DNA of 64,000 nucleotides from an uncultured Flavobacteriales bacterium (GTDB lineage: Bacteria > Bacteroidota > Bacteroidia > Flavobacteriales_D > Sanyastnellaceae), in the NCBI GenBank assembly GCA_937881575.1, contig CALGEI010000042.1:62001-126000 (forward strand), in the 5' to 3' direction. The notes under the pieces are model-generated. The model made no database searches. It had not been told where the DNA came from and worked only from the letters and a program-made list of their open reading frames with translations. Below, piece after piece: positions 5,313 through 9,102 of the stretch; the first letter of the stretch is position 1, and the number at the start of each line of letters is the position of its first letter. A program made the translations under genes and the position numbers.

Positions 5313-6050
5313 ATGCGCTGGTTGTTTCACATCGGAAGGTATATGCAGCTCCTGTTAGCTAGCTTTAGACAGCCTGAGAAGGGGCGTGTCTTTCGAGCCC
5401 TGCTTATTCGTGAGTTGGATGCGATTGGCACGCAATCCATTGGGATTGTGGCACTGCTGAGCCTTTTCATGGGCGCTGTCATATGCCTTCAAACGGCGCA
5501 CCAAATTGGCGGTTGGATCCCGGTTTATACCATTGGGTTTACCGTCCGTCAAACCATGATTTTGGAATTCTCTCCGACGCTCATCCCTGTAATTTTAGCT
5601 GGAAAAGTCGGATCCAATATTGCTTCTCAAATTGGAACGATGCGGGTTACAGAGCAAATTGATGCCTTGGAAATCATGGGGGTGAACAGTGCCGGATATT
5701 TGATTTTACCCAAAATCATTGCCGGCCTGATCATTGTGCCATTCCTCGTCATTTTAAGCATGTTCATGGGCATCGGTGCCGGAGCTTGGGTAGGTGTTGC
5801 CACCGGAGTGAGCTCATTGGCAGATTTTGAATACGGCATGCAGGTAGACTTCCATGTTTTTGACGTCATCTATGCCTTAACGAAGACCGTGGCCTTTGGA
5901 TTCATCCTCACCAGCGTTTCGGCTTATCACGGTTATTATGCCTCTGGAGGGGCACTGGAAGTTGGACGGTCAAGCACTCGTGCGGTGGTATGGAGTGTTG
6001 TCATCATCATGGTGGCCAATTTGATTTTAACTCAAATGCTCCTCAATTGA
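5313..6050 (+). CDS. mlaE: MlaE-type ABC transporter permease
   Basis: This 245-residue inner-membrane protein has about five hydrophobic segments and belongs to the MlaE/Ttg2B permease family, which moves phospholipids between the inner membrane and the periplasm. Diagnostic stretches are the E-L-D-A-I-G-like element near the start of the first core helix, AGKVGSNIASQIGTMRVTEQ (about 95-114), and DALEIMGVNS. These form the cytoplasmic coupling region conserved in the family. The ATP-binding partner follows 7 bp downstream. The MCE-domain component (MlaD) that normally completes the system is not adjacent. Confidence 0.9.
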   Translation: MRWLFHIGRYMQLLLASFRQPEKGRVFRALLIRELDAIGTQSIGIVALLSLFMGAVICLQTAHQIGGWIPVYTIGFTVRQTMILEFSPTLIPVILAGKVGSNIASQIGTMRVTEQIDALEIMGVNSAGYLILPKIIAGLIIVPFLVILSMFMGIGAGAWVGVATGVSSLADFEYGMQVDFHVFDVIYALTKTVAFGFILTSVSAYHGYYASGGALEVGRSSTRAVVWSVVIIMVANLILTQMLLN

Positions 6051-6057
6051 AGCTATT

Positions 6058-6816
6058 TTGATCGAACTGCATCACATATCCAAGTCATTCGGTGACCATG
6101 ACGTCCTCAAGGATGTGCAGGCGACTTTTGAACGGGGACAGGTCAATTTTGTCATTGGGCGCAGTGGGAGCGGCAAGAGTGTTTTGACCAAATGCACGGT
6201 CGGATTGATCGAGCCGGATCAGGGCCACGTTTCTTTTGACGGGAGGAACTTCACGGCGCTTTCTCGCCGAGATCGTAAAGAGATTCGTCAAGAGATTGGG
6301 ATGCTATTTCAAGGGGCTGCTTTGTTCGATAGCATGACCGTTTTAGAAAATGTAAGTTTTCCTTTGACGATGTTCAGCGACATGACCGCATCTGAAATTA
6401 CCAAAAGAGCAGAGGAGTGCTTGGAGCGAGTGGAATTGGGAGATGCAGGCAAGCGATATCCTGCAGAATGCAGTGGTGGAATGCAAAAACGTGTGGGCAT
6501 TGCGCGGGCCATCGCCATGAATCCGAAGTATTTGTTTTGTGACGAGCCGAATTCAGGATTGGATCCCCAAACGGCCATCGTAATCGATCAATTGATTTTG
6601 GAAATCACACGCGAATACAACATGACGACCGTGGTGATTTCTCACGACATGAATAGCGTTATGGAGGCAAGCGACACCATTCACTTTGTTCATGAAGGCC
6701 GGATATTGTGGAGAGGCAATCGAACGGGGTTGCTCGCAGGGGGTGTTCCTGAATTGGAAGAGTTTGTCTTTGCATCTGATTTAATGCGACGTATTCGAAA
6801 AGCCGGACAGATATGA
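6058..6816 (+). CDS. mlaF: MlaF-type ABC transporter ATP-binding protein
   Basis: This 252-residue ATPase is expected to energise MlaE. It has the Walker A motif GRSGSGKS (about 34-41), a Q-loop (MLFQGAALFDSMTV), the ABC signature CSGGMQKRV, Walker B LFCDEPNSGLDP, and the switch histidine in VISHDM. The Q-loop wording F-Q-x-x-A-L-F-D-S-x-T-V is typical of MlaF. Translation must begin at the TTG at 6058: no ATG precedes the conserved MIELHHISKSFG N-terminus after the mlaE stop. Its last bases overlap the start of the next gene (ATGA), so the three genes form one operon. Confidence 0.92.
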   Translation: MIELHHISKSFGDHDVLKDVQATFERGQVNFVIGRSGSGKSVLTKCTVGLIEPDQGHVSFDGRNFTALSRRDRKEIRQEIGMLFQGAALFDSMTVLENVSFPLTMFSDMTASEITKRAEECLERVELGDAGKRYPAECSGGMQKRVGIARAIAMNPKYLFCDEPNSGLDPQTAIVIDQLILEITREYNMTTVVISHDMNSVMEASDTIHFVHEGRILWRGNRTGLLAGGVPELEEFVFASDLMRRIRKAGQI

Positions 6817-7493
6817 GCGCGTCGGAATCTCACCATATTCCGCTTGAATTCGATCGTTTGAGCGAAGAGGAGATGTTGGAGAGAGCCGATTCTATGTTGC
6901 TTCGGATGCAGGGAAGAAGATCCGTTCGTCATTTCGATACAACGCCGGTGCCACTCGATGTAATTCGACGCTGCATCGCTGCAGCAGGAACAGCTCCTTC
7001 CGGAGCACACAAGCAACCGTGGACTTTTTGCTTGGTGACGAACGCTGAAGTCAAACGAGCAATTCGTGAGGCCGCTGAGAAAGAGGAATATGAAAACTAT
7101 CACGGGCGTATGTCAAATCGCTGGTTGGAAGATTTGAAAGTCTTTGACACGAATCACTTCAAGGCGCATTTAGAGGAAGCGCCGGCTGTGATTGTTGTTT
7201 TTAGACAAGTATGGACTGTTTCTGAAAGCACAGAAGGACCGAAGCAACAGAACTATTATGTGCAGGAATCAGTAGGCATTGCCTGTGGAATGCTGATCAA
7301 TGCATTGCATGAATCAGGTTTGGTATCTTTGACGCATACGCCTTCTCCCATGGAATTTTTGACGGAAATTTTGAAACGACCATCGAATGAGCGGGCTTTT
7401 CTTCTCATTCCTGTCGGTTATCCGGCTGAAGACTGCACCGTTCCACACTTAGAGAGGAAACCTTTGGGTGAGATAATGGTGGAAATCCATTGA
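6813..7493 (+). CDS. Iodotyrosine deiodinase-like flavoprotein (nitroreductase superfamily)
   Basis: This 226-residue FMN protein matches the iodotyrosine deiodinase (IYD) branch of the nitroreductase superfamily more closely than ordinary NfsB-type enzymes. FMN-binding RRSVR lies at 35-39 and the GTAPSGAHKQPWTF segment at 59-72. The IYD lid residues that clamp the amino-acid zwitterion of halotyrosine are all present in the right spacing: Glu92, Tyr96 and Lys117. The C-terminal LIPVGYPAEDCTVPHLERKP also matches the family. The expected reaction is reductive dehalogenation of halotyrosines. The physiological substrate is an inference, since related bacterial flavoproteins can have other roles. 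It overlaps mlaF by 4 bp. Confidence 0.85.
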   Translation: MSASESHHIPLEFDRLSEEEMLERADSMLLRMQGRRSVRHFDTTPVPLDVIRRCIAAAGTAPSGAHKQPWTFCLVTNAEVKRAIREAAEKEEYENYHGRMSNRWLEDLKVFDTNHFKAHLEEAPAVIVVFRQVWTVSESTEGPKQQNYYVQESVGIACGMLINALHESGLVSLTHTPSPMEFLTEILKRPSNERAFLLIPVGYPAEDCTVPHLERKPLGEIMVEIH

Positions 7494-7563: not shown

Positions 7564-7571
7564 TTACTTTG
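7564..7571 (+). promoter_or_regulatory. Candidate -7 promoter element of acpP
   Basis: TTACTTTG ends in the TTTG of the Bacteroidota -7 consensus and lies 22 bases before the acpP ATG, inside the 100-bp gap after the deiodinase gene. A convincing -33 box is not evident. Confidence 0.3.
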
Positions 7572-7593: not shown

Positions 7594-7830
7594 ATGTCTG
7601 AGATTCAAGAAAAAGTAACGGCGATTATCGTCGATAAGTTGGGAGTAGATGCTGGAGAAGTCAACTTGGAAGCAAGTTTCACCAATGACCTTGGTGCTGA
7701 CTCCTTGGATACAGTAGAACTCATCATGGAGTTTGAAAAAGAATTCAATATTGCCATTCCTGACGATCAGGCTGAAAAAATCAGCACGGTAGGTCAGGCT
7801 GTCGAATACATTTCCGGAACGGTTAAGTAA
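7594..7830 (+). CDS. acpP: Acyl carrier protein
   Basis: This is a 78-residue acidic four-helix carrier of growing fatty acyl chains. The 4'-phosphopantetheine attachment serine is Ser37 in the G-A-D-S-L-D-T motif, followed by the recognition helix [11 protein letters not shown]. Length and composition are standard. The gene lies 12 bp upstream of fabF, giving the usual acpP-fabF pair, and is preceded by a 100-bp gap that probably holds the promoter for the run acpP-fabF-rnc. Confidence 0.97.
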
Positions 7831-7842
7831 ATCCTGCTCTGC

Positions 7843-9102
7843 ATGGAGCTCAAAAGGGTAGTGGTTACAGGTCTAGGGGCAGTGACGCCTCTAGGAAATG
7901 ATGTGCAATCGTATTGGCAAGGATTGGTTGATGGCAAAAGTGGAGCCGCAGGCATCACTAAATTTGATGCCACCAACTTCAAAACACAATTTGCTTGCGA
8001 AGTCAAAGGATTCGACGTCTCTCAGTTTCTTGACCGCAAAGAATCGCGAAAAATGGACTTGTTCGCTCAGTATGCCATTGCATGCACGGACGAGGCATTG
8101 GAGGATGCAGGACTTGCCGGAGAGAACCCGCCATTGGATCATGACCGGGTCGGTGTCATCTGGGGTTCGGGTATTGGAGGTTTCCAAACCTTCATGAATG
8201 AAGCGTTGAACTTCCACGAAAACAAAGGCATTCCACGATTCAGTCCGTTTTTCATCCCGATGATGATTTCGGATATTGCGGCGGGACACATTAGTATCCG
8301 TCATGGATTTCGCGGGCCTAATTTTTGCACGGTATCCGCTTGTGCGAGTGGTACGAATGCGATGATTGACGCATTCAACTACATCCGGCTGGGCAAAGCT
8401 GAAGTGATGGTGACAGGGGGTTCAGAAGCGGCTGTTACAGAGGGTGGCATAGGAGGTTTCAATGCCTTGAAAGCGCTCTCGACACGCAATGATGATCCTG
8501 CTCGAGCCTCTCGGCCGTTTGACTCAACGCGAGATGGGTTCGTGTTGGGTGAAGGTGGTGGCGCCATCATCCTCGAGGAATATGAGCATGCTGTAGCGCG
8601 TGGAGCTCAGATTTATTGCGAAATGGTGGGCGGTGGCATGAGTGCAGATGCGCATCACATTACGGCCCCTCATCCGCAAGGACTGGGCGCCCGGAATGTA
8701 ATGAAGGCTGCATTGGACGATGCTGAAATGTCACCTTCAGACGTCGACTATGTGAATGTACACGGTACATCAACTCCTTTAGGAGACATAGCCGAAACAT
8801 TAGCCATTCAAGGAGTTTTTGGTGAACACGCCTATGATTTGAACATCAGTTCAACGAAGTCAATGACGGGGCACCTTTTGGGTGCTGCGGGCGCGATTGA
8901 AGGCATCGCCTGTATTCTGGCCATTCAACACGGCGTCATTCCACCAACAATTAACTTCGAGTTTCCGGATGAAGGTCTGGATCAAAAGCTCGACTTCACT
9001 TTGAACAAAGCAAAGCATCGGAAGGTGCGGGCAGCGTTGTCCAATACCTTTGGTTTTGGAGGTCACAATGCCTCTGTTTTATTTAAGGAGTTCCAAGCTT
9101 AA
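7843..9102 (+). CDS. fabF: Beta-ketoacyl-ACP synthase II
   Basis: The enzyme condenses malonyl-ACP with acyl-ACP in fatty acid elongation. This 419-residue thiolase-fold protein has the nucleophile Cys167 in VSACASG, the first catalytic histidine in NVHGTSTPLGD (near 305), and the second in KSMTGHLLGAAG (near 342). That Cys-His-His triad is the KAS I/II type. The C-terminal NTFGFGGHNAS motif is also present. It follows acpP closely and is followed after 3 bp by rnc, an order common in Bacteroidota. Confidence 0.97.
   Translation: MELKRVVVTGLGAVTPLGNDVQSYWQGLVDGKSGAAGITKFDATNFKTQFACEVKGFDVSQFLDRKESRKMDLFAQYAIACTDEALEDAGLAGENPPLDHDRVGVIWGSGIGGFQTFMNEALNFHENKGIPRFSPFFIPMMISDIAAGHISIRHGFRGPNFCTVSACASGTNAMIDAFNYIRLGKAEVMVTGGSEAAVTEGGIGGFNALKALSTRNDDPARASRPFDSTRDGFVLGEGGGAIILEEYEHAVARGAQIYCEMVGGGMSADAHHITAPHPQGLGARNVMKAALDDAEMSPSDVDYVNVHGTSTPLGDIAETLAIQGVFGEHAYDLNISSTKSMTGHLLGAAGAIEGIACILAIQHGVIPPTINFEFPDEGLDQKLDFTLNKAKHRKVRAALSNTFGFGGHNASVLFKEFQA

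Follow-up and report, generated by a model that had tools for sequence, protein, structure and literature searches.

In iodotyrosine deiodinases (IYDs) binding of a halotyrosine closes an active-site lid, the zwitterion of the substrate contacts FMN, and the reduced flavin donates its electrons singly and thereby expels halide. Bacterial IYDs are already known and the gene described here is an ordinary one that adds no chemistry of its own. In the mouse enzyme the residues R96, R97, S98, R100, P123, S124, T235 and R275 are FMN contacts (PMC3930498), on which the mouse numbering used below is anchored. The orthologue SUP-18 of Caenorhabditis elegans regulates a K+ channel and its substrate is unknown (PMC3930498), so IYD orthologues can have other roles.

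Here, we describe an IYD gene in a window (the whole analysed stretch of DNA) of 64,000 nucleotides from an uncultured Flavobacteriales bacterium. The gene (iyd, positions 6813 to 7493, forward strand) starts with ATG and encodes 226 amino acids that are assigned, from sequence, tree and model, to an IYD homologue with the fold of the nitroreductase superfamily. Searched against the PDB, its product matches nearly over the full length the IYDs of Haliscomenobacter hydrossis (5ko7, E 3.2e-75), mouse (3gb5, E 2.4e-57) and human (4ttb, E 8e-57), followed among the IYDs by 6pz0 (E 1.3e-21), with the top non-IYD matches at E 1e-14 or weaker. Such values (3e-75 to 8e-57) are far past chance and uphold the first-pass annotation, which had read this ORF as a bacterial IYD homologue. 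Pairwise identity amounts to 55.6% with H. hydrossis, 46.6% with mouse and 45.2% with human IYD, and the Pfam family PF00881 (Nitroreductase) is found with 79.5 bits against a cut-off of 23.5. The nonsynonymous distance to locus L004 is 0.14 with synonymous change being saturated (NG86), which indicates purifying selection on iyd.

The active-site lid is encoded by codons E92 to K117 (7086 to 7163, forward strand). Its residues Glu92, Tyr96 and Lys117 align with mouse E153, Y157 and K178 at identical spacing (+4, +25) and show, together with T113 and T176, no variation in 106 aligned IYD sequences. This means that the three residues were rightly recognised earlier as the zwitterion-binding triad of the mammalian enzymes (exact spacing, each invariant in 106/106), and that a complete lid is borne out by sequence, tree and model. 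The eight residues in touch with FMN in the mouse enzyme all find an identical counterpart (R35, R36, S37, R39, P62, S63, T176 and R215; 8/8). They include the segment RRSVR (codons R35 to R39, 6915 to 6929), which aligns with mouse R96, R97, S98 and R100, and the segment PSGAH (codons P62 to H66, 6996 to 7010), in which P62 and S63 align with mouse P123 and S124 and which forms a turn at the flavin, both on the forward strand. T176 (7338 to 7340, forward strand), the FMN contact aligned with mouse T235, presumably donates a hydrogen bond to flavin N5. Among the 106 sequences R35, R36 and R39 are invariant or nearly so, and position 37 is occupied by Ser or Thr.

In a maximum-likelihood tree of 53 rows (6PZ0 left out) one branch, supported at 98/99, has on its one side the window protein, all its relatives and the IYDs of Haliscomenobacter, mouse and human, and on its other side BluB, FbiB, NOX, YdjA, a Geobacter nitroreductase and the two other nitroreductases of the same genome. 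The outgroup branches are long and we rely on this split between IYDs and non-IYDs alone. The phylogeny that the first-pass annotation had proposed thus groups the protein with characterised IYDs, apart from BluB and nitroreductases. An alignment-based AlphaFold2 model (pLDDT 90.1; a single-sequence prediction with pLDDT 40 was discarded) has as top PDB match chain B of 5ko8, in which FMN and iodotyrosine are bound to H. hydrossis IYD (Z 28.1, rmsd 1.3, 218 residues). IYDs take up the first 12 rows of fold matches, after which Z is 19.1 at best; substrate-bound IYDs reach Z 27-28 compared with about 19 or less for nitroreductases or BluB, and the longest matches are substrate-bound IYD forms with an ordered lid. 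With sequence, tree and model in agreement we regard the ORF as a full-length, authentic bacterial IYD with a probability of roughly 85%, its activity being predicted.

Most likely the predicted function is FMN-dependent reductive dehalogenation of halotyrosines. As a member of the nitroreductase superfamily the protein would form a homodimer and use FMN, with an L-halotyrosine (3-iodo-, bromo- or chlorotyrosine) bound above the flavin. Glu92, Tyr96 and Lys117 would grip the amino-acid group of this substrate and shut the lid, Thr176 would tune the flavin for one-electron chemistry, and reduced FMN could then expel the halogen as halide to yield tyrosine, possibly in the service of salvage or detoxification. 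That fold and lid were kept for a different natural substrate, zwitterionic or phenolic (e.g., nitrotyrosine or a halophenol), or that the enzyme is mainly a flavin reductase, is unlikely, since none of the residues that bind the amino-acid portion of halotyrosine varies (106 sequences), which is unexpected for a substrate without that part, and the closest structure binds iodotyrosine. This alternative draws on the existence of IYD orthologues with undefined substrates (PMC3930498), on a Haliscomenobacter IYD complex with 2-iodophenol in the PDB (5krd) and on the patchy spread of the gene in soil, freshwater and marine lineages, where the source of halotyrosine is not evident. Inside the cell there is likewise no evident source, because a search of the genome for a flavin-dependent halogenase of the tryptophan type (PF04820) gave no match. 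As a possible partner in tyrosine breakdown HPPD was considered; it is present in the host genome and in 238/245 genomes of the order (IYD in 100/245), and being near-universal it has no discriminating power and gives no evidence for a link with IYD, whose patchy occurrence does not follow tyrosine degradation.

In the window iyd belongs to a series of genes in the order manC-like (reverse strand), mlaE, mlaF, iyd, acpP, fabF and rnc-like (all forward). The first of its upstream partners is an mlaE-like permease (5313 to 6050; PF02405, 3e-62; TIGR00056 under its cut-off) and the second an mlaF-like ATPase of a lipid ABC transporter (6058 to 6816; PF00005 above cut-off, NCBIfam MlaF among the top matches though below the equivalog cut-off). 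According to the ORF coordinates, the mlaF stop and the iyd start share the tetranucleotide ATGA (6813 to 6816). The translational coupling claimed at first sight is real as far as this 4-nt overlap goes, but the overlap recurs in just 10 of 29 family relatives (L085-L113, automatic start calls), 25 of which have a spacing within 9 nt, and in the nearest relatives (about 70-80% identical) mlaF and iyd are 24-49 nt apart. The sole MlaD/MCE-domain match in the genome (G000:C199:32149-32382) is unlinked to mlaEF. Downstream follow acpP (7594 to 7830; 78 amino acids), named by resemblance to acyl carrier proteins and conserved in syntenic relatives, and a fabF-like 3-oxoacyl-ACP synthase gene (7843 to 9102), an ORF of conserved position. 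Between iyd and acpP the forward strand carries TTACTTTG (7564 to 7571), which fits the motif T[AT]nnTTTG and which, from the known Bacteroidota consensus, we take to be the -7-like promoter element of acpP. Of 107 loci, some of them representing the same genome twice, 106 have the motif 5' of acpP, as against about 12 expected after shuffling. Therefore, transcription of acpP probably begins anew downstream of iyd. The gene iyd itself is probably the final one of an mlaE-mlaF-iyd transcript, with acpP-fabF served by a promoter of their own.

Within the family of the window this arrangement is fixed. The order mlaE-mlaF-iyd-acpP-fabF is conserved, and mlaF is the nearest recognised gene upstream of iyd on the same strand in 56/56 family genomes (the window, L085-L113 and L136-L161). 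The other families of the order were sampled at 14 IYD loci, in none of which mlaEF adjoins IYD; the usual order there is purN (divergent), IYD, acpP and fabF, a divergent purN preceding IYD at 10 of these loci and acpP-fabF following it at 9. Judged from this spread, the slot upstream of acpP is probably the older IYD arrangement and mlaEF a family-specific upstream neighbour. The mlaF setting that had appeared unexpected to the first-pass annotation is thus real and conserved in the family, but is explained by the widespread IYD slot before acpP-fabF, and the mlaEF-IYD order, constant in all 56 family genomes, is missing from 14/14 loci elsewhere in the order. A second kind of proximity is seen in Saprospiraceae and relatives (L015, L033, L055, L057, L065, L079, L081), where mlaEF is encoded on the opposite strand and lies upstream of IYD at a distance of 1.6-4 kb, a gap that in most of these loci contains one or two short-chain dehydrogenase genes. 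A third recurrent context occurs in other Bacteroidota (L027, L030, L032, L038, L053), where IYD is followed by a biotin-lipoyl domain protein. PadR and PspC genes come before IYD in all of these but L032, in which it lies near the end of its contig.

At E below 1e-40, 88 of the 296 Bacteroidota genomes in the sample (about 30%) have a close homologue, and in the order the gene is patchily present in 100 of 245 genomes, one copy each. Homologues also occur in Haliscomenobacter, Pontibacter, Ignavibacteriota, Streptomyces and Deinococcus. It is an ordinary gene in Bacteroidota that is not confined to marine organisms, and the halide-rich habitat invoked earlier is unneeded in view of the homologues in Haliscomenobacter, Pontibacter, Streptomyces and Deinococcus. 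Three contigs labelled Euryarchaeota, Verrucomicrobia and Rickettsiales (L010, L013, L044) carry Bacteroidota-like IYDs, L010 even with the whole family operon; they are probably mis-binned MAG contigs. In the family of the window two IYD-less genomes (L163, L169) have mlaF directly followed by acpP, and L162, from the same genus, contains between both genes a decayed IYD with many stops (2242-2979; local protein score 65, shuffled maximum 46), apparently a loss in progress. Other IYD-less family genomes have mlaEF away from acpP. Outside the family purN-acpP-fabF occurs without IYD in six loci (L180, L181, L182, L184, L185, L186) and with a decayed IYD fragment in L183. Hence the neighbour genes persist without IYD, as mlaF-acpP and purN-acpP-fabF are intact in IYD-less genomes.

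These losses bear on the possibility of a functional link of IYD to the MlaEF lipid transporter or to fatty acid synthesis, in which the substrate would be related to membranes or lipids or halogenated membrane components would be repaired. The fixed mlaE-mlaF-iyd order in 56/56 family genomes and the several Saprospiraceae loci with mlaEF at a distance of 1.6-4 kb on the opposite strand, mostly beside short-chain dehydrogenase genes, speak for it, but mlaEF adjoins IYD in 0/14 other-family loci of the order, runs directly into acpP with no trace of IYD in two family genomes and flanks a decayed IYD in one, acpP carries its own promoter element and mlaD is found elsewhere in the genome, so that we hold such a link to be very improbable. 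A component of the Mla system would be expected to accompany mlaEF constantly across genomes, but the association is limited to one family, and mlaEF persists without iyd. The fixed operon together with the differently arranged proximity in Saprospiraceae also suggests, as an equally remote speculation, that the family IYD was recruited to work with MlaEF, e.g., in dehalogenating tyrosine- or phenol-containing envelope compounds. Because the coupling to mlaF is family-restricted, Mla is kept without IYD and acpP has its own promoter, we regard this coupling as a local operon arrangement that lends little weight to a lipid-linked role; the neighbour genes most likely reflect operon history and not a shared pathway. 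With its conserved slot across Flavobacteriales and its repeated losses, the gene provides natural presence/absence pairs for testing the purpose of bacterial IYD.

The chance that the protein is a BluB or a general nitroreductase instead of an IYD is negligible, for although the superfamily is shared, the Pfam label reads merely "Nitroreductase" and the NCBIfam BluB model gives 72.6 bits, this score is far below the curated cut-off of 150 and such an identity is contradicted by the alignment to IYDs, the residue invariance, the tree and the fold matches.

Compared with known systems, the window IYD has the nitroreductase fold and FMN in common with BluB (PDB 2ISJ), from which it is set apart by an identity of 19-20% in the fold alignment, by a score below the BluB cut-off and by its separate clade. 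The L-tyrosine-bound IYD of PDB 6PZ0 appears both in the sequence search (1e-21) and among the fold matches (Z 23.9), but identity is only about 30-32% and its N terminus is shorter. With mammalian IYD/DEHAL1 (human 4TTC, mouse 3GFD/3GH8) the protein shares 45-47% identity, the Glu/Tyr/Lys triad, the FMN contacts and the lid, whereas it is devoid of the N-terminal membrane anchor and has Thr-His-Thr-Pro-Ser near the flavin in place of Thr-Thr-Thr-Pro-Leu-Asn. Closest is H. hydrossis IYD (PDB 5KO7, 5KO8, 5KRD) from the same phylum, with 55.6% identity and a common substrate triad, length and fold (Z 28.1). The FMN contacts of both enzymes are the same except for one exchange (Ser37 in the window protein, Thr in H. 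hydrossis); the window protein differs in a loop near residues 137-140 that is two residues longer, and its gene stands in the mlaEF-iyd-acpP context of its own family.
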